A DNA stretch of 56,721 nt from Archangium sp. GTDB taxonomy: Bacteria; Myxococcota; Myxococcia; Myxococcales; Myxococcaceae. This document shows, piece after piece, positions 920 through 13,039 of the stretch (within the stretch, counting starts at the first letter, position 1; the number at the start of each line of letters is the position of its first letter). The stretch spans positions 1-56,721 of the forward strand of contig JAUYRZ010000026.1 of the NCBI GenBank assembly GCA_030695565.1, written 5' to 3'. Under the pieces are notes generated by a model. That model made no database searches. It saw only the letters and a program-made list of their open reading frames with translations, and was not told the origin of the DNA. Both the position numbers and the translations under genes were made by a program.

Positions 920-992
<73 letters not shown>

Positions 993-1009
993 CTGCAGGA
1001 CACATAGCC

Positions 1010-1082
1010 GGCCCCGTCATCTAGTGGCCCAGGATACGGCCCTTTCAAGGCTGTTACACGGGTTCGAATCCCGTCGGGGTCA
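1010..1082 (+). tRNA. tRNA-Glu (anticodon TTC)
   Basis: The acceptor GGCCCCG pairs with CGGGGTC with one G-T pair. The D-stem ATCT/GGAT, the anticodon loop CTTTCAA and the T-arm ACGGG-TTCGAAT-CCCGT all fold. CCA is not encoded. It is probably co-transcribed with tRNA-Lys, as both precede one strong terminator. Confidence 0.95.
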
Positions 1083-1084
1083 AT

Positions 1085-1127
1085 CCCCGGAGCTCCAGCG
1101 CAACGGGGCTCCGGGGTTTTGATTTTT
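1085..1127 (+). terminator. Rho-independent terminator of the tRNA-Lys/tRNA-Glu unit
   Basis: A perfect 9-bp stem, CCCCGGAGC (1085-1093) with GCTCCGGGG (1108-1116), is followed directly by TTTTGATTTTT. It begins three bases after tRNA-Glu. Confidence 0.85.
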
Positions 1128-1225
1128 AACGGCCTGTTATCGATCTCGTGCCGGCTAGTTACGCCACCGAATCGATGCGCCGTGGTTCTGTTCTTCCTCA
1201 GCAGCCAACCAAGAGGGAGCACACC

Positions 1226-1516
1226 ATGTCGAAAATCGAAGCGTCACAAACCCACTCGTCAGCCTGGATCGCCCAGGTCTGGATCTCGTTCGCCGCCGCG
1301 GTGGGCGTCACCTCGATGGGCATCTGGTTCTTGCCCGTCGACCCCTGGGTAAAGGCGTTCATGGGCATGGGGCTGCTCTTCTCGGTGGGCAGCACCTTCA
1401 GCCTCGCCAAGACCGTGCGCGATCAGCACGAGTCGGACTCACTTCGTAAACGCATCGACGAAGCGCGGGTCAACCGCATCATCGCCGAGCACGACCCGCT
1501 CAAGCCTGCGCTGTGA
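1226..1516 (+). CDS. YiaA/YiaB-family two-helix inner-membrane protein
   Basis: ATG 1226 was chosen because a GAGGGAG ribosome-binding site sits just upstream; the frame extends further 5' but that part looks non-coding. The product is 96 residues. Two transmembrane helices fit the YiaAB pattern: AWIAQVWISFAAAVGVTSMG followed by a short VDPWVKAF turn and a second helix MGMGLLFSVGSTFSLAKTV. The C-terminal third is charged and cytoplasmic. Function of the family is unknown. Its last 17 bases overlap the convergent gene at 1500. Confidence 0.8.
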   Translation: MSKIEASQTHSSAWIAQVWISFAAAVGVTSMGIWFLPVDPWVKAFMGMGLLFSVGSTFSLAKTVRDQHESDSLRKRIDEARVNRIIAEHDPLKPAL

Positions 1517-2424: not shown

Positions 2425-3660
2425 TCAAGGACACGAGGTCGGCTTCACGTCGTATTCCACGACGCCCAGCCCACCCGTGCCCACCAACCGCACGTGGTAG
2501 GTCTGCCCCGCAACCGGGTTCCACCCATCGCGAAACACCGCGACCGTGGCCTGCCCATACGAGCCATTCAGAATCTCCAGCCGCGTGGGCATCTCCACCC
2601 CGTCGCCCGTGCGCGTGACGCTCACGGTGGTGCCCGACAACGGAATGTTCCCGTGAATGGTCCAGTGCCACTGGGTCAGCTCGAGCGGCGAGAACCCCGG
2701 GGGCGGAAAGGCCACGAACTCAGGGCGCACGCTCGAGCCGCTGCTCCCGAAAACGCTGATGCACGAGGCCGAGCCGTAGTTGTTGCCGCCGCGGTAGTGC
2801 CCGATGCCCACCGGCCCCAACGGAGGATTGAGCAACCACCGCCGGTGACCGAACGTCGTCTCGTTGCCGAAGTCGATCATCCACAGGTCGATCGCGTCGG
2901 TCGCATCACGAGCGCCCCAGGCGATGTTGCTCGAACCCGCGCCGCCAGCGCCCGCCTGCGTGTAACAAGTCGCCGACGACTGGGGAAAATGCGCCGCTGG
3001 GCCCGCCGGGTTCCACGCCGAGACGACCGCGCAGGCCTGACCGGTGCTGTTCGCGCCCGAATCATCTGCCGTGGGCCCCAGCCCCACCAGCCAGCGATAG
3101 AAGTTCAACCGCGCGAGCGCATCGTCGAGGGCGTTGCGCGAGATCGCGCCGGGATCGCAGGTGGTGGTGGTGTTGCTGAACCCATCGCCCGCTTCTTTGC
3201 GCGTCTGCGCCGCACTCCAGGCCGTGCAGACCTGCGCCGACGTGCGCGTCTCCGGGGTCCCCGGCGCCACCGGCGTGCAGCTCGAGCCATCGCCGGTAAA
3301 ACCCGGGCCACACACGCAGCGCGCCAACGTGCGTTCACACCGCGCGCCCGCCGCCATGCAGGTGATGCCCGCGCAGGGATCGACTCCAGCGTCGACGGCG
3401 GGGCTCCCCGCGTCCACCACCGGAGCAGCGCCCGCGTCAGGCACCGAAGCACCCGCATCATTCGTTCCCGCGTCTTCGGCCGGAGTCGCGCCCGAATCGG
3501 CACCACTCGCCGTCTGGAGCGACGCCGTCACCAACGCCGGATCAGCGAGCCCCACGCACCCAGTCGAGAGCAGCAAGCCGGCGAGAACGAAGGAGCGCAC
3601 ACCTTGTTGTCGCTCCCGTCTTCGAACCGGTGCGGCGCTCTCACGCCTTGAGAGGAGCAC
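2425..3660 (-). CDS. Secreted CAP (SCP/PR-1)-domain lipoprotein
   Basis: The start is uncertain: GTG 3660 or GTG 3600. The latter begins VRSFVLAGLLLSTGC, a clean lipoprotein signal with lipobox LSTGC. Next comes an Ala/Asp/Gly linker rich in DAG repeats (typical of myxobacterial surface lipoproteins), then an EGF-like Cys cluster (CAGITCMAAGARC...CVCGPGFTG). The remainder is a CAP domain: ALDDALARLNFYRWLVGLGP near the front and FGHRRWLLNP around residue 272, which is the CAP 'HRR.lL.P' signature. CAP proteins are usually extracellular, with roles in adhesion, lipid binding or proteolysis. Function here is unknown. Confidence 0.75.
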   Translation of the reverse strand: MLLSRRESAAPVRRRERQQGVRSFVLAGLLLSTGCVGLADPALVTASLQTASGADSGATPAEDAGTNDAGASVPDAGAAPVVDAGSPAVDAGVDPCAGITCMAAGARCERTLARCVCGPGFTGDGSSCTPVAPGTPETRTSAQVCTAWSAAQTRKEAGDGFSNTTTTCDPGAISRNALDDALARLNFYRWLVGLGPTADDSGANSTGQACAVVSAWNPAGPAAHFPQSSATCYTQAGAGGAGSSNIAWGARDATDAIDLWMIDFGNETTFGHRRWLLNPPLGPVGIGHYRGGNNYGSASCISVFGSSGSSVRPEFVAFPPPGFSPLELTQWHWTIHGNIPLSGTTVSVTRTGDGVEMPTRLEILNGSYGQATVAVFRDGWNPVAGQTYHVRLVGTGGLGVVEYDVKPTSCP

Positions 3661-3949
3661 TGCCCACCGCAGTGCCGCTCGCCCCCTGCAATTCGAGCAA
3701 TACCGCCCACTTCAGCCCGTGAGCGCTTCGTACAGGCTCACCCACCACGAGAACTGATCCGATCGCGCATCGGCGGGCGCACCTCGAATTGGGCCAGCGC
3801 CATCGCGTTCGAGCCGCGCGCCCACGCGGCGTAGACCGAGCCCATCGCCCCGCCTGCTTCTCCCCGACTCTCAGGGTCGCGTCGAGGGCGCTGGGCTGAA
3901 GGGGCTCAGAAGGGCCAGCGGCGGGGCGAGAGCATGCCACGCATCTCGT
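3661..3949. other. Intergenic stretch without a convincing gene
   Basis: A 99-residue minus-strand frame exists but is Arg/Ala-rich, has no domain and no ribosome-binding site, and looks like a chance frame in high-GC DNA. No repeat or hairpin stands out. Confidence 0.5.
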
Positions 3950-4507
3950 TCAGAACGAGCCGCTGAGTCCCACCGGCGTGACGTTCACCGTGACGCCCTC
4001 GAGCAGCTTGCCGGTGAGGCGCGCGTTGAAGATGCCCATGGAGAGATCGAAGAAGGCCAGGAACCCGCCCTGAATCAGCAACGATTGGCCCAGGCCCACC
4101 ATTCGCGGATCGCCCACGGCTTCACCTCGCTGCCAGAGGAACGCGGCTGTCGCGAGGTAGGCGAGATCGAGCGCGGCGTTGATGAAGAAGATCTTCTCGA
4201 TCTGCTCCGAGGCCTCGAGGCTCTGCTTCGCGTTGAGGGCGGCGGGGTTCGCGTTCCACTCGCGGATGAGCGTGTTCAACGCGAGGCCCAGGTTGACGGC
4301 GTTCCACAGCAGGTTGCCCAGGTGGAGGAACCGCACCCGCTCGTCGCGCTCCAGGCCGAAGCCGATCGCACCGGCCGCCATGTTGCCCACCGCCCAGCCG
4401 CCGAGAACGAACATGCCCACCCGGCTGGTCGTCAGGCGCTCCCGGTTCCAGGCTTCGAGATCGAGCGGTTGGGCGGTGAGGGTCACGGCCGCGATCAAGG
4501 CGAGCAT
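3950..4507 (-). CDS. Small multipass membrane protein (DUF6992-like)
   Basis: ATG 4507 was chosen because it gives a signal-like start (MLALIAAVTLTAQPLDLEAW); the longer frame would run into mutY. The product is 185 residues with about four hydrophobic helices: GMFVLGGWAVGNMAAGAIGF, then FLHLGNLLWNAVNLGLALNT, FFINAALDLAYLATAAFLW and LIQGGFLAFFDLSMGIFN. The 'GmxvLGgWAxGN' start and 'NxxWNxvNlxia' motif recall DUF6992 proteins. That is family resemblance only, and function is unknown. It is divergent from mutY with 34 bases between, so the two share a promoter region. Confidence 0.65.
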   Translation of the reverse strand: MLALIAAVTLTAQPLDLEAWNRERLTTSRVGMFVLGGWAVGNMAAGAIGFGLERDERVRFLHLGNLLWNAVNLGLALNTLIREWNANPAALNAKQSLEASEQIEKIFFINAALDLAYLATAAFLWQRGEAVGDPRMVGLGQSLLIQGGFLAFFDLSMGIFNARLTGKLLEGVTVNVTPVGLSGSF

Positions 4508-4541: not shown

Positions 4542-5621
4542 GTGACGAATTCGGTGGAGCGCGCGACAGAACTCAAGCGGGAGCTGCGCACGCAATTGCT
4601 GCGGTGGTTCGATCGATCGAAACGCGATCTGCCCTGGCGCAAGTCGAGAGAGCCGTACGGCGTCTGGGTCAGCGAGATCATGCTGCAGCAGACGCAGGTC
4701 GAACGCGTGGTGCGGTACTGGACGAAGTTCCTCGCGAAGTTCCCCACGGTGAAGTCGCTCGCGGCCGCGCCGCTGGAAGAGGTGCTCGGGCTGTGGACGG
4801 GCCTCGGCTACTACTCGCGGGCGCGCAACCTGCACGTGGCCGCGCAGGAGATCGTCGCTCGGTTCGAAGGCGAGCTCCCCGATTCGGTCGATGCGCTGCT
4901 CACCCTGCCCGGCTTCGGCCGCTACACCGCGGGGGCCGTCGCTTCGATCGCGTTCGAGCTCGAGGCGCCGCTGGTCGATGGCAACGTGGCGCGGGTGTTC
5001 TCCCGATTGCTCGAGCTGGATGGTGTGCCAGGCGAGAAGGCGCGGGAGGCCGGCTTGTGGGCAGCCGCCGAGGTGCTGGTATCAGGCGCGCGGCCGGGTG
5101 ACTGGAACCAGGCGCTGATGGAGCTCGGCGCGACGGTCTGTCTGCCGCAGAACCCGCTGTGTCTGGTGTGCCCCGTGAGGGCGTCGTGCAAGGCGCTGGC
5201 GAGCGGACGCGTCGATGAGCTGCCCCGGCCCAAGAAGCCGCCGAAACGAAAGCGGCTCGAGCTGGCGGTGGCGGTCGCGCGGCGTGGTGACGAGGTGTTG
5301 CTGGCGAGGCGCGAGGAGAAAGGCCTCTTCGGCGGGCTCTGGGAGCTGCCTGGGATCGAGCTGGTGCTCGGCGCGACGAGCGATCGTGCCCTGCAGAAGC
5401 TGCTCGGGAAGAAGGCGGCGATCGGGCCCGAGTTCAGCGTGGTCGAGCGCACGTTGACGCATCGTGAGCTGGTGATGCGGCTCCATCCGGTGGCGTTGCC
5501 GAAGAAGCTCGCCGCTCCACCGCCCGGCTATCTCGAGTGGCGTTGGGTGCCACGCGCCGAGCTCGCGGCGCTGGGAATGAGCTCGGCGACCCAGGGCGCG
5601 TTGGCCGAGACCACGGACTGA
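4542..5621 (+). CDS. mutY: A/G-specific adenine DNA glycosylase MutY
   Basis: MutY removes adenine mispaired with 8-oxoguanine. Start GTG 4542 is preceded by GATGAGG at good spacing. 359 residues, normal for the family. Visible elements: catalytic Glu45 in SEIMLQQTQV, the helix-hairpin-helix LPGFGRYTAGA (122-132), catalytic Asp146 in VDGNVARV, and a [4Fe-4S] set C200-x6-C207-x2-C210-x5-C216. The C-terminal half from about 235 is the NUDIX-like 8-oxoG recognition domain (LFGGLWELPG; ERTLTHRELVMRLHP). All key residues are present. It is divergent from the small membrane protein at 3950. Confidence 0.97.
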   Translation: MTNSVERATELKRELRTQLLRWFDRSKRDLPWRKSREPYGVWVSEIMLQQTQVERVVRYWTKFLAKFPTVKSLAAAPLEEVLGLWTGLGYYSRARNLHVAAQEIVARFEGELPDSVDALLTLPGFGRYTAGAVASIAFELEAPLVDGNVARVFSRLLELDGVPGEKAREAGLWAAAEVLVSGARPGDWNQALMELGATVCLPQNPLCLVCPVRASCKALASGRVDELPRPKKPPKRKRLELAVAVARRGDEVLLARREEKGLFGGLWELPGIELVLGATSDRALQKLLGKKAAIGPEFSVVERTLTHRELVMRLHPVALPKKLAAPPPGYLEWRWVPRAELAALGMSSATQGALAETTD

Positions 5622-5674: not shown

Positions 5675-6499
5675 TCAAAGCAGCGCCCGCAGCCGCGCCT
5701 GAGCCGAGAGCAGCTCCGCGCTGATTCGCGCCGCGTCTTCGACGGAGTGCAGGCCCAGCCCACAGGCTGGTGAAAGAAGCAGGCGGGAGAGCACGCGTTG
5801 AAAGTTCGGAGTGCTCGCTCGCAACGACGCCGCCACCGAGTCGCACCGTTCGTTCACGTCGTACTTCGCGCTGGCGTTCGTCGGAATGATCCCCAGGCAC
5901 AAGGTGCCTCCCGCCTCGACGAATCGCAGCCACGCGCGCCGATCCTCGAGGAGCGCATCGAGCGACAACCGCGCGTCGAGGCCGATCAGATCGAAACCAA
6001 GCCCGAGCAACTCACCCCACCGCGTCTGCCCGCAGCAGTGAAGCCCCACGATTGCCCCGGCCTCACTCGCCGCGCGCCGCACCGCCTCGAGCGCGTCGAC
6101 GGGCAAAGGCGCCATGCCCAGCCCTGGCTCATCGAGAAAGATGATCGGAGTCACCTTGGCCGCGAGCAACTCACGCGTCATGGCCACCGCCTTCGCCGCG
6201 AGGTGTTCGACCACGCCTTCACGCCGATCAGAAAACGCCGTCACCGTCGCCGGCCCCGCGAGCTGAGCCTTCGCGAACCGGGCGCCCCGCAGCTGAAGCG
6301 CACCGATGAACGGCTCGAGCGAAGGCGGTAACTCCGAACTCAACGCGAGCGGGAGCATCAACTCGCCGGCCACTTCGGGCAGGTATGGAACATCCTGTTG
6401 CAGTGACACGTGCAGCGCTTCGGCCAGTGAAAGCGGCAGGCTACCGACGCCGGTCATCGCACACGGGGGCAGCAGACTCAGTGCGTCACGACGGCTCAC
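5675..6499 (-). CDS. MetE C-terminal-like (cobalamin-independent methionine synthase/UROD-like) barrel protein
   Basis: About 274 residues from GTG 6499; GTG 6505 or the ATG at MTGVGSLP (6457) are alternatives. The family start GxGSLP is at residues 17-22. Zinc/thiol-site ligands of methionine synthase are visible: the H-x-C motif in GLHCCGQ (H154, C156) and a distal Cys in SPACGLG (C246). The conserved acidic loop LDEPGLG (122-128) is also present. Only one barrel exists, without the MetE N-terminal domain (full MetE is about 750 residues), so this resembles the archaeal-type or stand-alone MetE-like proteins whose methyl donor is not certain. Divergent from the gene at 6546. Confidence 0.75.
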   Translation of the reverse strand: MSRRDALSLLPPCAMTGVGSLPLSLAEALHVSLQQDVPYLPEVAGELMLPLALSSELPPSLEPFIGALQLRGARFAKAQLAGPATVTAFSDRREGVVEHLAAKAVAMTRELLAAKVTPIIFLDEPGLGMAPLPVDALEAVRRAASEAGAIVGLHCCGQTRWGELLGLGFDLIGLDARLSLDALLEDRRAWLRFVEAGGTLCLGIIPTNASAKYDVNERCDSVAASLRASTPNFQRVLSRLLLSPACGLGLHSVEDAARISAELLSAQARLRALL

Positions 6500-6545: not shown

Positions 6546-7100
6546 ATGGCGGTTCGGCGGTTCCTCACTGCGTTGATCGTGCTCATCGCATCAACCACGA
6601 GTGCGCAGGTCGACGTGAAGGCGGCGCTCCCCGTGCTGCTCAAGGTGCTGACCTACGACGTCAACTTCGACGCGCGTGGAGCGGGCCCCTTCGTGCTTCT
6701 CGTCGTCTCAGAACCCTCGCAAGCCGCCGATCGGACAGCGCTCATCGCGAGCTTGAAGGACTCCATCGTCACCGAGATCAAGAAACGCCCGCTCAAGTAC
6801 ATCGCGGTCGACTTCAGCGACGAGAATCAGCTGCAGGCAGAGATCGACAAGCACAAGGCCTCTGCGTTGCTGTTGGTGCCCGGTGCTTCAGCGGCGACCA
6901 TCAAGGCCTTGTGGGAGATCTCGCAAGACAACCAGCTCTACGCGCTCGCGCTCGACGCAGAGACGGTGCAGTCGTCGTTCCCGCTCGGCGTGAGCATGGT
7001 GGGCGACAAGCCGCAGATCATCATCAACGAAAAGTCATCGAAGGCGGTGGGTGCGCGCTTCGAGACCGTGGTGCTGCGCATGGCGAAGGTCATCCAGTGA
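6546..7100 (+). CDS. Secreted YfiR-like (DUF4154-type) protein
   Basis: ATG 6546 gives a good signal peptide (MAVRRFLTALIVLIASTTSA, cut after SA). The mature part (VDVKAALPVLLKVLTYDVNF...) has the alternating sheet-helix layout of YfiR-like periplasmic proteins: FVLLVVSEPSQ early, ALLLVPG in the middle, and SFPLGVSMVGDKPQIIINEK near the end, where YfiR-type proteins have a similar 'G..i.lv.g...i.iN' segment. YfiR proteins bind and repress a partner at the inner membrane, but no partner cyclase is adjacent here. The last 11 bases overlap the convergent retron RT gene. Confidence 0.65.
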   Translation: MAVRRFLTALIVLIASTTSAQVDVKAALPVLLKVLTYDVNFDARGAGPFVLLVVSEPSQAADRTALIASLKDSIVTEIKKRPLKYIAVDFSDENQLQAEIDKHKASALLLVPGASAATIKALWEISQDNQLYALALDAETVQSSFPLGVSMVGDKPQIIINEKSSKAVGARFETVVLRMAKVIQ

Positions 7101-9159
7101 CTTCGTCGAGCGCGGCCTTCAACCTCTGACCCTTGGCGCGGTCGACCATCATCACGTAGGCGATCTTCCCCTCGAGCACGCGGCGGTAGTCGGGCACCTT
7201 GTCGCGGTTCTGCGCCTCGAGGCCGGTCTTCTTCGCCTGGTGAAGGATGGCGCGCAGCCGCTTGAGCTCGTCGCGCGGCACCCCGGGCTTCTCGTTCACC
7301 ACGATGCCGGTGACGTCTTGCCGGCCACCCCGCCCCTGCGCGCGGCCCTTCTTCGGGTTGAGCGCGAAACCTTCGTCCTCCACCACGTGCCGAATGCTCG
7401 CGTGCACGAAGCCCAGCTCACCGCGCGTGAAGGTCTTCTTCGAGAAGGAGAGATCGTCGGCGTAGCGCGTGTAGACCCAGCCCTTCTTCGCGAGCCGGCC
7501 GCGCAGGCGGCGATCGAGCTTGCGGGAGATCGCGTTGGCGATGAGCGGGCTGGTCGGCGCACCTTGCGGCAGACACCGTTCACCGACGGCCACCCACCAC
7601 TCCGCGCCTTCGAAGCTCACCTTGCGGCGCGGCGCTTCGGTGCACAGCAGGCCGAGCACCGTGGCGACCGCGGGTGAAAACCCGAACGATTGAAAGAGCC
7701 CGCGCACGCGGCGGTACGAGATGGTGGGGAAGAAGTTCTTCAGGTCCACGTTGAGCACCACGCCCTGCCCCACGTGCGGCGTGGCGTTGGTGACGGTGCT
7801 GCGGCCCTTCACGAAGCCGTGCGCTTCCGCCTCGAGCGGGATCTTCTCGAGCACCAGGTCGAGCACCTTGCGCTGCGTCGCCTTGAGCAACGCGTGCGGC
7901 GCCGAGAGCAGCCGCTTACCGCCCGAGCGCTTCTCGATCTCGAAGTAGACGTAGTGCGTCTTGCGCGTGGCTTCGGCGTGGAAGCACAACCACCGCAGCT
8001 GCTTGATGGTGAGGTCGAGCCCCTTCGCCACGTCGGCCGGCGTGCTCCACAACGGCAGGCCGAGCTTCTGGAGTGACTCCACGTCGACGCGCCGGTCGGT
8101 GAGCCCGCGAGAGACACCGCGGCCCAGGTAGATGATGTCTTCCGCGCGACGCTTCGCCACGCCTTCGACGCGCGCGAGCTCTTTGGCCTCCGCTGCCTGC
8201 TTGCGCTCTTCGCGCTTCTTGCGCTTCGCCTCGCGGATCTGCTCGATCGCGTCATCCGCCGTCTTCGCGGCAGCAGCGGTGGCGAGCCGATCGGCGTCGT
8301 GAAAGCGCAGCCACAAATCACCCACGCGGTGGATCTCGGCGATCTGCACCTCGGTGAGCAGGCCGCGCAGAATGAGCCCGCGATCGATGAGCGCGGTGCG
8401 TTCGTCACTCTGCGGAGGAATCGTGTCGACCCGGCCGATCCACGCCGTGCGGTACGGGTTGATCTTCACCGCGCGTTTGCGCAGCTCGTCGGCCGACAGC
8501 CCGAGGATCTCCGGGTTCGCCTGGTAGCTGTTGAGCACCAGCGGCGCCGCGGGCGGAGGCGGCGCGACCCGTACCGGAGGCGACTGCTGTTGCCGCTGCT
8601 GGGTGGTCACGGCGGGCGGGGGCGCGACCACGCCGAAGCGCCAGGTGCCCGAGACGAGCGAATAACCCAGGCCCGGCAACAACTCCGTGCACAGGCGGCC
8701 CACCAGGGTGGCCACGGTCATGAAGTCCGGAGAATTCGTGCGCGTGATCTCGGCTGCGATCTCCATCGAGTTGAACGGCTGCTTCTTCGCGGCCCGCGCG
8801 TGGATCGAGGCGCGAATGCGCTGCTCCTGCGAGAGACCCGAGCCGACCACGCCCACCACGTTGGGCGGCGGCACCACCAGCGGCGGCGAGCTCACCGGGC
8901 CGAAGGTGCCCCCCGCGTCCTGCGCGTAGCCCAGCGGGAGCAACAGCCCGTCTTTGAACAACCGATGCACCGTGTCACTGGCCAGGCGCAGATCATCGGC
9001 GGTGCGGTGGGGATCGTTCGCGGTCACCTCGTTGGCGATGTCGAGCGCGGTGAAGCGCTCCTTGCGCGCCACCCGGCCCAGCATCGCGTCGCGCACGAGG
9101 TTCTGCTGCGCGGTCCCGCCGCCGCCGAACATGCGCTTGACCTGGTCCCAGAACGACAC
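7090..9159 (-). CDS. Retron reverse transcriptase with long N-terminal extension
   Basis: Synthesises msDNA from the adjacent msr-msd RNA. Start GTG 9159 has the site AAGGAG (complement of 9172-9177), which lies inside retron repeat a2. 689 residues, longer than the about 485 I recall for the Myxococcus Mx162 RT. Residues 19-79 and 111-170 are two similar helical modules (RVARKERFTALDIANEVT; ARAAKKQPFNSMEIAAEIT), followed by a Pro/Gln linker and a charged coiled coil (300-345). The RT core (about 360-680) has NATPH (458-462, the retron NAxxH motif), catalytic Asp472 in NVDLKNFFP, LPQGAPTSP (530-538), YADD (566-569) and VTG (616-618). All catalytic residues are intact. Its 3' end overlaps the convergent YfiR-like gene by 11 bases. 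Confidence 0.95.
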   Translation of the reverse strand: MSFWDQVKRMFGGGGTAQQNLVRDAMLGRVARKERFTALDIANEVTANDPHRTADDLRLASDTVHRLFKDGLLLPLGYAQDAGGTFGPVSSPPLVVPPPNVVGVVGSGLSQEQRIRASIHARAAKKQPFNSMEIAAEITRTNSPDFMTVATLVGRLCTELLPGLGYSLVSGTWRFGVVAPPPAVTTQQRQQQSPPVRVAPPPPAAPLVLNSYQANPEILGLSADELRKRAVKINPYRTAWIGRVDTIPPQSDERTALIDRGLILRGLLTEVQIAEIHRVGDLWLRFHDADRLATAAAAKTADDAIEQIREAKRKKREERKQAAEAKELARVEGVAKRRAEDIIYLGRGVSRGLTDRRVDVESLQKLGLPLWSTPADVAKGLDLTIKQLRWLCFHAEATRKTHYVYFEIEKRSGGKRLLSAPHALLKATQRKVLDLVLEKIPLEAEAHGFVKGRSTVTNATPHVGQGVVLNVDLKNFFPTISYRRVRGLFQSFGFSPAVATVLGLLCTEAPRRKVSFEGAEWWVAVGERCLPQGAPTSPLIANAISRKLDRRLRGRLAKKGWVYTRYADDLSFSKKTFTRGELGFVHASIRHVVEDEGFALNPKKGRAQGRGGRQDVTGIVVNEKPGVPRDELKRLRAILHQAKKTGLEAQNRDKVPDYRRVLEGKIAYVMMVDRAKGQRLKAALDEVTG

Positions 9160-9166
9160 GCTTCTT

Positions 9167-9196
9167 TCACTCCTTCAGGGAGAACCTGACCACCGA
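9167..9196 (-). repeat. Retron inverted repeat a2, containing the RT ribosome-binding site
   Basis: The 3' boundary of the msr-msd RNA. It ends 7 bases before the RT GTG start. The AAGGAG ribosome-binding site for the RT is inside the repeat, so a1:a2 pairing would cover it. Confidence 0.88.
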
Positions 9197-9228
9197 CTTC
9201 TACCTCTGGACCACGTCCGATAACCCAG

Positions 9229-9307
9229 GGGCCGACCTGAGCTGTCGCGATGAAAACCACGTTGTCTTGGTCGTCGCGAAGCGACTCGTGACAGCTCGGG
9301 TCGGCCC
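9229..9307 (-). other. msd hairpin (template of msDNA)
   Basis: GGGCCGACC(T)GAGCTGTC and GACAGCTC(G)GGTCGGCCC form an 18-bp stem with one T/G position. The 43-nt loop contains a further GTCGC-GAA-GCGAC stem (9273-9285). A single long hairpin is the expected shape of the single-stranded DNA part of msDNA. Confidence 0.85.
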
Positions 9308-9380
9308 AAAAAGAACATCGGGCGTGGGGTCGAATGGATGAGACGGCGCCACCCCGGCGGAACACCGGGGCATGACGGGC

Positions 9381-9410
9381 TCGGTGGTCAGGTCCTCCCT
9401 GCAGGCGTGA
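9381..9410 (-). repeat. Retron inverted repeat a1
   Basis: The 5' boundary of the msr-msd RNA, starting 6 bases after the WHSWIM stop codon. It pairs with a2; the longest uninterrupted match is ACCTGACCACCGA. Confidence 0.9.
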
Positions 9411-9416
9411 AAATCA

Positions 9417-11105
9417 TCAATGGAGCAGCTCCTTCTTTGCAGAATCCGTCGAGAGAATCTCGGCGTTCTCGAACAGCTTGAGCGCGATCAAGTGACGGCA
9501 CGGCCCCTTCTTCAGCCGGAACTGGCGGAAGTGATCGCAGCTGCAGGTGGCCTTGGAGAACCCACCGTCGGCATCGAACACCGCCTCGCAGCGAGAGCCC
9601 ACGCGCGCACCTTCAGGCTTCACCTGCGCGATGAGCAACTGCCTCGCCTTCGGCAGCACCTCGCGGCGCTCCAGCGTGACGCCTCCCCGTTTGTACGTGT
9701 CGATGCCGGCAGCCAGCTCGGGTGACGGCGGGCCCAGCACGCTCTCAGAGAGCGCGACCGGCATCACCTCGCGGAAGCGGTACTGCTTTGCGGCGAAGTC
9801 GAAGATCACCTGACCTTGCTGCGAGAGGTGATGCAGCGAGCCGATCAACGCGGGCCGGGAGACCTCCACCAGCCGCGAGAGTTCATCGAAGCTGCTCAGG
9901 TGCTGCTTCTTGAGGTGCTCCAGAATGCGCGCACTCGCCCGCAGGTCGGCCACGAAGGCGCCCGAGAGCAGCTCGAGATTCCCGCCGCTGGTCCAGTCGT
10001 TGGTGGTCCACCCGGAGAGGCCGAGCACGAAGCGCATGTCGCCCAGGTGCGCGGTCCAGATCGACGGCAGGCCCGAACCGAGCAGCTGCACGGTGAACTT
10101 CTCCGCGATGGGGAGCAGCCGCGCGAGCACGCCCAGCCGCCGCCGGCCCCAGACCTTGATGGTCTCGGGTTTCTCGCCCACGTACGGCAGGCCGTGGCTC
10201 TCGACGCGCACGCCCCACGGCTGCAGCACCATCGAGGGCGCTTTGCCCGGCGTGAGCTGGAACTCGATCGAACGCGGGCCCGCTTTTTCGCGATTGCGCT
10301 TGAGATGCGCCAGCAGCGAATAGACCGCGTCGACGCTCAGCTCGACCTCGCGTGAAGGCAACGCCATGGCCGCGGAGAGCTGACCGAAGCCCTTGAGCCA
10401 GCTCGGAGGGAGATCGATCTTCTCTTCCCGGTAGGTGCCGGCGCTCTCGACCTTCACCTCGAAGCCGGTGGGATCCACCAGCAAGCGCGTCTCGCGGTAC
10501 GTGCGCAGCGTCTGGAAGTGTTCGTAGAGCGCGATGGAGTAGTCGACGTTGGTGGTGCCCAGGCCCGAGGCCGTGGTGCCTTCGAAGGCGTCACGATCGA
10601 CGAAGAGACAGCCGTAGCTCGACTCGTCTTTCGCGAAACACTCGAAGAAAACGGTGTCGGGCGCGACGGTGACCACGGGGTCGCAGGGCACCAACGCGCG
10701 GAACATCTCCGGGTCGTTGCGCATGAGCTCAGTGGCCCACTGGCGGCGCGCGGTCCAGTAGACGTGGTGCATCTGCTGGAAGTCCTGTTGCAGATTGGCC
10801 GGCGGCGCTTCGCCCTGCAGCTTCTCGATCTCGCGGCGCTTCTCGACGTCGATGATCGACGCGCGCAGGTCGTCTTCCTGGCGGGTCTGTTCGGTCTTCC
10901 ACGCCTCGTAGACGGCCTTGTCGCGCTTCTTGAAACGGAAGTCGCCGATCACCACGTCGTGCAGCGCGCTCATCGCCTCGCGGAAACGCAGCGGGTTCTT
11001 CAGGCGCTGGTCGAAGAAGACTTTCGGGCGAGCGAGGTTGGGCTGAAACGAGAGCGCAGAGCCGACCATCCCGGACGAGCCGAGGTATTTGAGATCGAGC
11101 TTCAC
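9417..11105 (-). CDS. Retron-associated winged-helix/SWIM zinc-finger protein (WHSWIM)
   Basis: 562 residues from GTG 11105 with an AGGGGAAC-like site upstream. The C-terminus carries a SWIM zinc finger: C521-x-C523-x12-C536-x-H538 (CSCDHFRQFRLKKGPCRH). Around residues 385-450 is a winged-helix-like stretch (ILEHLKKQHLSSFDELSRLV, then SRPALIGSLHHLSQQGQVIF). The N-terminal 380 residues have no motif I recognise. SWIM fingers bind DNA or protein. With the adjacent RT and ARM-repeat genes this matches the accessory protein of what I recall as type XIII retrons. It is the likely effector or msDNA-sensing part of the system (inference). The gene is 49 bases downstream of the ARM gene, with a palindromic repeat between them. 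Confidence 0.88.
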   Translation of the reverse strand: MKLDLKYLGSSGMVGSALSFQPNLARPKVFFDQRLKNPLRFREAMSALHDVVIGDFRFKKRDKAVYEAWKTEQTRQEDDLRASIIDVEKRREIEKLQGEAPPANLQQDFQQMHHVYWTARRQWATELMRNDPEMFRALVPCDPVVTVAPDTVFFECFAKDESSYGCLFVDRDAFEGTTASGLGTTNVDYSIALYEHFQTLRTYRETRLLVDPTGFEVKVESAGTYREEKIDLPPSWLKGFGQLSAAMALPSREVELSVDAVYSLLAHLKRNREKAGPRSIEFQLTPGKAPSMVLQPWGVRVESHGLPYVGEKPETIKVWGRRRLGVLARLLPIAEKFTVQLLGSGLPSIWTAHLGDMRFVLGLSGWTTNDWTSGGNLELLSGAFVADLRASARILEHLKKQHLSSFDELSRLVEVSRPALIGSLHHLSQQGQVIFDFAAKQYRFREVMPVALSESVLGPPSPELAAGIDTYKRGGVTLERREVLPKARQLLIAQVKPEGARVGSRCEAVFDADGGFSKATCSCDHFRQFRLKKGPCRHLIALKLFENAEILSTDSAKKELLH

Positions 11106-11113
11106 GACTTGTT

Positions 11114-11148
11114 CCCCTCTCCCCTCGGGAGAGGGTCAGGGTGAGGGC
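11114..11148. repeat. Interspersed palindromic element, copy B (inside retron operon)
   Basis: A perfect 9-bp palindrome, CCCTCTCCC (11115-11123) with GGGAGAGGG (11127-11135), followed by the family tail TCAGGGTGAGGGCC. It lies in the 49-base gap between the ARM and WHSWIM genes. Confidence 0.85.
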
Positions 11149-11154
11149 CGAACA

Positions 11155-13014
11155 TCATTCAGTGACCTCACTGCCCACAAACCGAAGTTCAGGAAGCTCA
11201 CGAGCCAGCAACTCACTGAGAGCCACATCGAGAGTCGCCGCACGAACGACCTGGGCAAGCGCAGTCCGCCGCTCCGAGTGCCGCACGCTCCGCAGCGAGT
11301 AGCCCAGCAACTTCACCAGCGCCGCCGCCTCTTCCGGCTTCGACACGATTCGCTCCGCCACCTGCCGGGCCGCGTGCCGCTTCGCCCTGCTCCCGCGGTG
11401 CACCGACAGCAACGTGGTCGCCCACACCCGCTGCAAGGTATCGGGTGAGAACCGCGCCTCACGCGCCTCGAACTCGGTCAGAAACCGATCACGAACATCC
11501 GCATAGGGCGTCTCACTCATCGCCAACCACAGCTCGATCGACTCACCGAAACGCGAGTCGCGCTGCATCAACTCCATCGCGGTCTTCCGCACGTCGACGT
11601 GTCTCGCATCGAGCAGCTCGCGCACCAGCAGCGGCCGCGCGGCGTCCTCGAGAATGAGCTGCTGGGCCACCCACTCCATGCCCTGCTGCCGCACGTGAGC
11701 CGCTTCTGCGTTGCGCAGCCGCAGCAACGTCTCCAACTCCTTCGCGGTGCGAATGGGCCGGGCCTTCGCCCACTCCAGCCCCAGCTCCGCGACCGGGGCC
11801 GCCCGGGCGCACGCGAGCTCGATGCACTGCTCCAGCGACAGCCGCGAGGGCGCGACGTGCCGCTTCACCGCCGCGCACACCAGGAGCAGCACTTCAGGGT
11901 TGGAGATCGAGAGCAGCTGCAGCCAGTCGGAGATCGGCAACGTCTCCAGGCCCTTGGCCGTCTCCAGCACCTTGCCACCCAGCCGCTGCACCTCTTCATG
12001 CGCGCTCTTGAGCAGGGGAATCATGCGGGCCGCGGTCAACCCCTGCAGCTGCGAGGCGTGGTGCGTCTCCAGGGCCCAGATCGCAAACCGGCGCACCGGC
12101 CGCGAGCCCGCGGTGAGCACCAGCTCGAGCAGCGCCTCGTGACCTTCTTTCCACGCGTCGGGTGCGAAGGGGGCGAACTGGAGCTCGGAGAGGTTCTTCC
12201 CCGCGGCCAGCTTCACGCCCAGCGGCGCGCGCTGCAGCACGTCGGAGCCACCGTACAACGCGTGCACCAGGAACCACGCGTCGAGCAGCGACTCGGTGCT
12301 GGCCAGGTGTTCATCGCGGTACCGCGCCAGCACGGGCAACACGTGCTGCCGGTAATCGAGCGTCGACTGCTTGAAGAGCTTGCGGAAGAACCGCCAGGTG
12401 CGGCGCTGGAGATAGCGGCGGGTCGAGAAGGTGAAGACGAGCGGATCGGCCCGCTCTTCCCCGCCCCCGCTCCTGATCGACTCCCACTTGTTGGTCTTCG
12501 GGTTGCGGCCCCAGTGCCGGTGCGGGTTGACCAGCGGGATGTACGGGCGTCGAGCACGCGTGGTGAGGCCGCTGACCGGGTTCGTGTAGCTGCGTTTCCC
12601 CGCCCCTCGCCATCGGGGCAGCCGGCGCAGCAGCTCTTTGGGCTCGCTCAGCAGCTGCTCCGTCACCGAGCGGCGGTTCTGCCAGTCCCACCGGGTCTGG
12701 GTGACCAGGCGGCGCTTGACGAGGCGGTCGAACGCGACGGCGAAGTGGCCCAGCAGCTCGGTGTCGTTGGCCTTCTCGGCGAGCTTGAAGAGGGTCTTGA
12801 CGAACACCCGGTGCCCCGGGCGATCGCAGCCGTCGGCGATGTACCCCTCGAGCAGCTTGCGGGCGAACGGCCGGGTCTCCGTGAAAAGCGCCTGGGCCAC
12901 CCCGGCGAGCTTCTTCTGGGCGCGTGAACCGAGCAGCTCGGGCAGCGCGCGAGCGTCGCCGGCCTCGAGAAACTCATCGAGGAGCAAACTGGAGCTGCTG
13001 GCGCCGCCCGTCAT
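11155..13014 (-). CDS. Retron-associated ARM/HEAT-repeat protein
   Basis: ATG 13014 preferred over an in-frame TTG three codons upstream; 619 residues. No signal peptide or membrane segment, so cytoplasmic. From about residue 250 to the end the sequence is a series of helix pairs typical of ARM/HEAT solenoids (VRRFAIWALETHHASQLQGL; HVRQQGMEWVAQQLILEDAA; HVDVRKTAMELMQRDSRFGE; ERRTALAQVVRAATLDVALS). The middle has a basic, aromatic segment (NPHRHWGRNPKTNKWESIRS) that may contact nucleic acid. No nuclease motif is evident. First gene of the retron operon, and the assumed protein-interaction component of the defence unit (inference from gene order). Confidence 0.85.
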   Translation of the reverse strand: MTGGASSSSLLLDEFLEAGDARALPELLGSRAQKKLAGVAQALFTETRPFARKLLEGYIADGCDRPGHRVFVKTLFKLAEKANDTELLGHFAVAFDRLVKRRLVTQTRWDWQNRRSVTEQLLSEPKELLRRLPRWRGAGKRSYTNPVSGLTTRARRPYIPLVNPHRHWGRNPKTNKWESIRSGGGEERADPLVFTFSTRRYLQRRTWRFFRKLFKQSTLDYRQHVLPVLARYRDEHLASTESLLDAWFLVHALYGGSDVLQRAPLGVKLAAGKNLSELQFAPFAPDAWKEGHEALLELVLTAGSRPVRRFAIWALETHHASQLQGLTAARMIPLLKSAHEEVQRLGGKVLETAKGLETLPISDWLQLLSISNPEVLLLVCAAVKRHVAPSRLSLEQCIELACARAAPVAELGLEWAKARPIRTAKELETLLRLRNAEAAHVRQQGMEWVAQQLILEDAARPLLVRELLDARHVDVRKTAMELMQRDSRFGESIELWLAMSETPYADVRDRFLTEFEAREARFSPDTLQRVWATTLLSVHRGSRAKRHAARQVAERIVSKPEEAAALVKLLGYSLRSVRHSERRTALAQVVRAATLDVALSELLARELPELRFVGSEVTE

Positions 13015-13039
13015 GGCGCCCAACCCTAGGAGAAACGCT

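Follow-up and report, generated by a model that had tools for sequence, protein, structure and literature searches.

Gene content and boundaries of the cassette

The window analyzed here, a 56,721-nt stretch of an Archangium sp. genome (GCA_030695565.1, contig JAUYRZ010000026.1), carries on its minus strand, in this order, a HEAT/ARM-repeat gene (11155–13023), a WHSWIM gene (9417–11105), a 248-nt msr-msd element (9165–9412), and a reverse transcriptase (RT) gene (7090–9159). Retrons, which were first found in myxobacteria, are bacterial units in which a reverse transcriptase converts a portion of the unit's RNA into a small DNA. The RT of 689 aa begins with GTG, and it matched the PADLOC model RT_XIII (E 2.4e-151) with a score 137 bits above that of the next model and Pfam RVT_1 at residues 408–604. 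The three motifs by which retron RTs are defined (PMC6868368) were all found, namely NAXXH as NATPH (residue 458, region X), YADD (566), and VTG (616, region Y), and the best matches among solved structures were retron RTs, the closest being Ec86 (7v9u, E 9e-42). The core of the protein covers about residues 290–689, and an N-terminal extension covers about residues 1–209.

Both partner genes belong to type XIII families, which are characterized by WHSWIM and HEAT/ARM (or WGR) genes adjoining the RT. The HEAT/ARM-repeat protein (622 aa; start at TTG 13023 or ATG 13014) matched HEAT-ARM_XIII with E 1.4e-165 and had no Pfam match; its low-confidence model was almost wholly helical (mean pLDDT 58.8) and too weak for a fold search. 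The WHSWIM protein (562 aa) matched SWIM_XIII with E 4.8e-172 and has a C-terminal SWIM zinc finger (Pfam SWIM, residues 515–544), with a structure prediction of pLDDT 32. Domain searches recognized no catalytic domain in either protein.

The limits of the cassette were read from genomes of the same genus. An Archangium MAG (locus L005), whose RT is 88% identical to that of the window, carries the same cassette with identical neighbours. In two genomes of the genus without the retron (G067 and G071), only about 60 bp separate the stop of the left neighbour from nuoA. These empty sites indicate that the ncRNA and the three genes, and nothing else, form one cassette of about 5.9 kb (7101–13029), which is thereby cleanly delimited by a natural comparison of presence and absence. 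The final codons of the RT run into the end of the left neighbour. In another genome of the genus (G068), the retron site holds a different insertion of 1.2 kb with a secreted, esterase-like ORF (L177:306-1501), indicating that varied genes become inserted between these neighbours.

Position, arms and fold of the msr-msd element

The preliminary description of this DNA had recognized an msr-msd gene from the letters, and its arms (9381–9410 and 9167–9196) were recounted with the same result of 27 matches in 30 positions. An inverted-repeat search extended them to 32 nt each, with a1 at 9381–9412 (the 5ʹ end of the transcript) and a2 at 9165–9196 (the 3ʹ end of the element), both on the minus strand; 29 of the 32 positions pair (91% complementarity), and a1 has counterparts in six loci of the window's type, in type A loci and in Mx162-like loci. 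Ungapped inverted repeats in the region scored at most 23, compared with a maximum of 12 over 200 dinucleotide shuffles. The spacing was also as first described, with 6 nt (9411–9416) from the upstream stop and 7 nt (9160–9166) to the GTG start of the RT. The element folds as RNA with −147.2 kcal/mol (z = −9.6), a stability equalled by none of the 200 shuffles, and the elements of four relatives gave z values from −10.0 to −13.8. The element occurs as a single copy in its genome.

Between the arms, all on the minus strand, the transcript would begin with the branch junction, where the last base of a1, A (9381), and the GC after it give an AGC with the candidate branching guanosine at 9380. The preliminary description had placed this gene "to the base"; the AGC and G9380 are indeed present at the inner end of a1, and the junction is conserved in relatives, which makes G9380 a plausible branch point, the branching itself being deduced from this context. 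The form GAGC is the one reported for Mx65 (PMC6868368). Next come an msr hairpin of 9 bp with a UUC loop (9351–9371), the 5ʹ side of a lower msd stem (9317–9327) that pairs with 9211–9221, the 5ʹ arm of the msd stem (9286–9307), an apical part with its own small hairpin or hairpins that is kept in L005 (9251–9285), the 3ʹ arm of the msd stem (9229–9250), and the 3ʹ side of the lower stem (9211–9221). The msd stem had been found in the right place (9229–9307), and its length of 18 bp was an underestimate: the arms are 22 nt long and form 20 Watson-Crick pairs. Both remaining positions are A·C in the RNA, that is, G·T wobbles in the cDNA. Thus, the element has the layout of a retron RNA gene, with an a1/a2 inverted repeat around an msr (one to three hairpins of 7–10 bp) and a long-stem msd.

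Searches of Rfam at gathering and relaxed thresholds gave no match of the element to a retron family, which would be no surprise if a curated model for it is lacking. Matches to microRNA families were generic to long hairpins, had scores far below gathering, and were dismissed.

Conservation in homologous loci

Among 195 Myxococcota genomes surveyed, SWIM_XIII was present in 79 and RT_XIII in 78. A paired a1/a2 element lies between the SWIM gene and the RT in the loci of the window's type (W-type), in type A loci, and in most of the examined Mx162-like loci, a class assigned by the CAGC junction and unit length rather than by sequence comparison. In the loci called type C, a simple inverted-repeat search gave no convincing a1/a2 element. 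The RNA type of the window is common to six loci (alignment A1), five of which were recovered from the 195 genomes by an exact core pattern. Conservation among them is found in the branch junction, in the hairpin of the msr, in the lower stem with GATGTTCTTT, and in the RNA motif GAAGTCG that precedes a2. The junction reads CGAGCCC in five of the six loci and CGAGTCC in L066, that is, GAGT for GAGC. In the RT tree, the six W-type RTs formed one clade (100/100), apart from a well-supported clade with Mx162-like RNAs.

Compensatory changes in the stems were looked for in A1, their absence being what the preliminary description had named as grounds for giving up its reading. Over the six loci, 88.9% of the cells pair, and 36 of the 80 pairs are altered on both sides, which none of the 500 shuffles matched; the presence of paired changes in homologous stems leaves that objection without ground. 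The signal disappeared when the register was slid, although this control somewhat favours the result since the pairs were counted on an RNAalifold structure from the same alignment. The msr hairpin (helix 4) was paired in 98% of cells with two pairs changed on both sides, the lower stem (helix 5) was likewise 98% paired, and in the msd stem (helix 6) 18 of 21 pairs had changed on both sides.

These data bear on two other explanations of the element. It might be a structured leader that controls translation of the RT and is not reverse-transcribed, such as an attenuator, a terminator, or a regulatory RNA. The element does lie directly upstream of the RT gene, and an AAGGAG within a2 (window 9160–9176, minus strand) stands 11 nt ahead of the GTG; pairing of a1 with a2 might thus hide the ribosome site of the RT. 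However, a retron RT with retron motifs and two type XIII partner genes adjoin the element, and type XIII subclades share its structure and position; we therefore regard a mere leader as very improbable, while a2 may still influence regulation as a side effect. The RT start is farther from a2 in loci L067–L069 than in the window.

Alternatively, the retron might have decayed, its RNA gene being no longer copied. This idea draws on another type XIII-like RT match of the same genome (L003, G000:C124:41200-42330), which has in-frame stops in the matched stretch and is possibly a decayed copy or else an alignment running past its end. In the window, however, the three genes are open over their full length, and compared with L005 they showed pS of 0.34–0.39 and pN of 0.08–0.12, a difference that indicates purifying selection, and the RNA stems are maintained by paired changes. 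Decay of the window's retron is thus hardly credible. The genome holds at least three type XIII-like RTs, namely that of the window, an Mx162-like one (C21), and one of clade C (C124).

The retron reading is directly based on the gene set, the RNA structure and its conservation, the RT motifs, and the cassette boundaries. Taken together, the element is almost certainly the msr-msd gene of a type XIII retron, a reading that the RT_XIII match, the retron motifs, and the structure kept in homologous loci bear out; msDNA production and phage defence would follow from this assignment. Elsewhere in the survey, locus L073 has a SWIM_XIII gene (387–2057) that comes after a HEAT-ARM end and is followed by a sigma-factor-like ORF, and no retron RT or msr-msd was found within 3.4 kb downstream of this SWIM_XIII gene.

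Comparison with known retrons

Ec86 (Retron-Eco1), which has the closest solved RT, follows the same overall principle, whereas its partner genes are different and its msd and RT are smaller than those of the window retron. Type XIII retrons as defined in PADLOC have the same three protein families, and their a1/a2 msr-msd likewise stands between WHSWIM gene and RT; compared with other members of the type, the window RT belongs, with the other W-type RTs, to a small separate clade. Retron-Mxa1 (Mx162) and Retron-Sau1 (Sa163) have an RT with an N-terminal extension and overlapping msr and msd ends (PMC6868368). The window retron shares the N-terminal extension with them, its msr and msd ends may likewise overlap, and Mx162-like RNA loci, with long a1/a2, a strong msr hairpin, and a long msd stem, also adjoin SWIM_XIII genes. 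In contrast, the window retron has a shorter msd and another msr sequence, its branch junction reads GAGC rather than CAGC, and its RT falls in a separate clade. As both the RT clade and the junction differ, the window does not belong to the Mx162/Sa163 subgroup, and the locus gives a second, distinct subclass of type XIII RNA with conserved anchors.

The N-terminus of the RT in the W-type clade starts with a short SFWxxxxxFF-like motif, which was common to all members when read by eye. Residues 1–209 aligned only with L005, the N-termini of the remaining members being shorter. In the window and L005 only, these roughly 200 extra residues look like a small helical domain in duplicate; about one copy was seen by eye in L066 and none in L067–L069. 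The extension may anchor the RT on a partner protein.

Proposed mechanism

In the retron mechanism described earlier (PMC6868368), the RT would start at the 2ʹ-OH of G9380, presented by the folded transcript through pairing of a1 and a2, and would then synthesize DNA along the msd, beginning just inside a2 and moving in the direction of the msr. The predicted product is an msDNA in which the RNA is joined by a 2ʹ-5ʹ bond to a DNA with a long hairpin. In Mx162, 8 nt belong to both msr and msd (PMC6868368). By the proportions of Mx162, the 3ʹ end of the DNA would lie near 9330–9336, or, if synthesis stops at the lower stem, near 9311–9318; these two candidate ends give an expected DNA length of about 115–140 nt.

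The unit probably serves in defence against phages. Those retrons that have been studied give protection against phages, and in them an RT-RNA-DNA complex restrains an effector, according to a published account (PMC12548924). In the present retron, the RT, the msDNA, the WHSWIM protein, and the HEAT/ARM-repeat protein would probably form one complex in which effector activity, attributable to either the WHSWIM or the HEAT/ARM-repeat protein, is restrained until a phage disturbs the complex. The literature found, of partial coverage, described no mechanism for type XIII retrons.

Fast change of the msd stem and loci with several units

The msd stem evolves differently from the msr. The msr of L005, the closest relative, departs from that of the window at 2 of 73 nt (a single paired change within its hairpin), whereas 14 of the 21 pairs in the msd stem are different, 13 of them on both sides; the three genes show 34–39% synonymous differences. 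This number of changed pairs exceeds the expectation for one site per pair (p 0.004) and does not exceed that for two sites (p 0.32). Over 27 Mx162-like loci, 22 of 38 msd-stem pairs were altered on both sides (0 of 500 shuffles); such two-sided changes were counted in 145 cells, and pairing stood at 97.5%. One-sided changes were rare, and over 351 Mx162-like pairs the stem changed at about the synonymous rate. Replacement of whole stems as a necessary explanation is unproven, since orthologous stems within one genus change pair by pair and the stem rate is about synonymous.

The mirrored changes allow selection on the msDNA hairpin to be asked about from the letters alone. In cells of the Mx162-like loci, the upper msd stem had 34 A·C and 7 G·U, and the msr hairpin had 0 A·C and 48 G·U. 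When distinct events were compared between RNA-only and msd helices, this bias gave p 0.21 and was rejected as proof of selected DNA pairing. A role of the stem as a guide or captured spacer was unsupported: neither the window stem nor one stem of L078 had an exact match in viral contigs, and the 3ʹ arm matched elsewhere in its own genome only the partner arm and one site with three mismatches.

We tentatively propose, as a possibility that we rate as rather unlikely, that the type XIII msd hairpin is a fast-changing cassette, in which the shape is kept, the letters of both arms are replaced at or above about the synonymous rate, and some loci hold two or three units. Either selection would diversify the stem, which might serve for instance as a decoy or sensor of phage enzymes, or one arm would template the other, with selection acting on the DNA and not the RNA duplex. 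The literature found, again covered in part, contained no report on stem evolution or multi-unit loci. These two points, the mirrored evolution of the stem and the multi-unit loci, deserve follow-up.

Five Mx162-like loci carry two or three units per RT; the msr and the apical loop are alike, and the self-complementary msd stems differ. The units lie at 3597–3721 and 3956–4080 (minus strand) in L078, at 5491–5616 and 5902–6027 (plus strand) in L075, at 663–788 and 990–1115 (minus strand) in L089, at 766–890 and 1127–1251 (minus strand) in L094, and at 1138–1264, 1524–1650, and 3391–3517 (minus strand) in L080. Two of the three units in L080 are located downstream of the RT.
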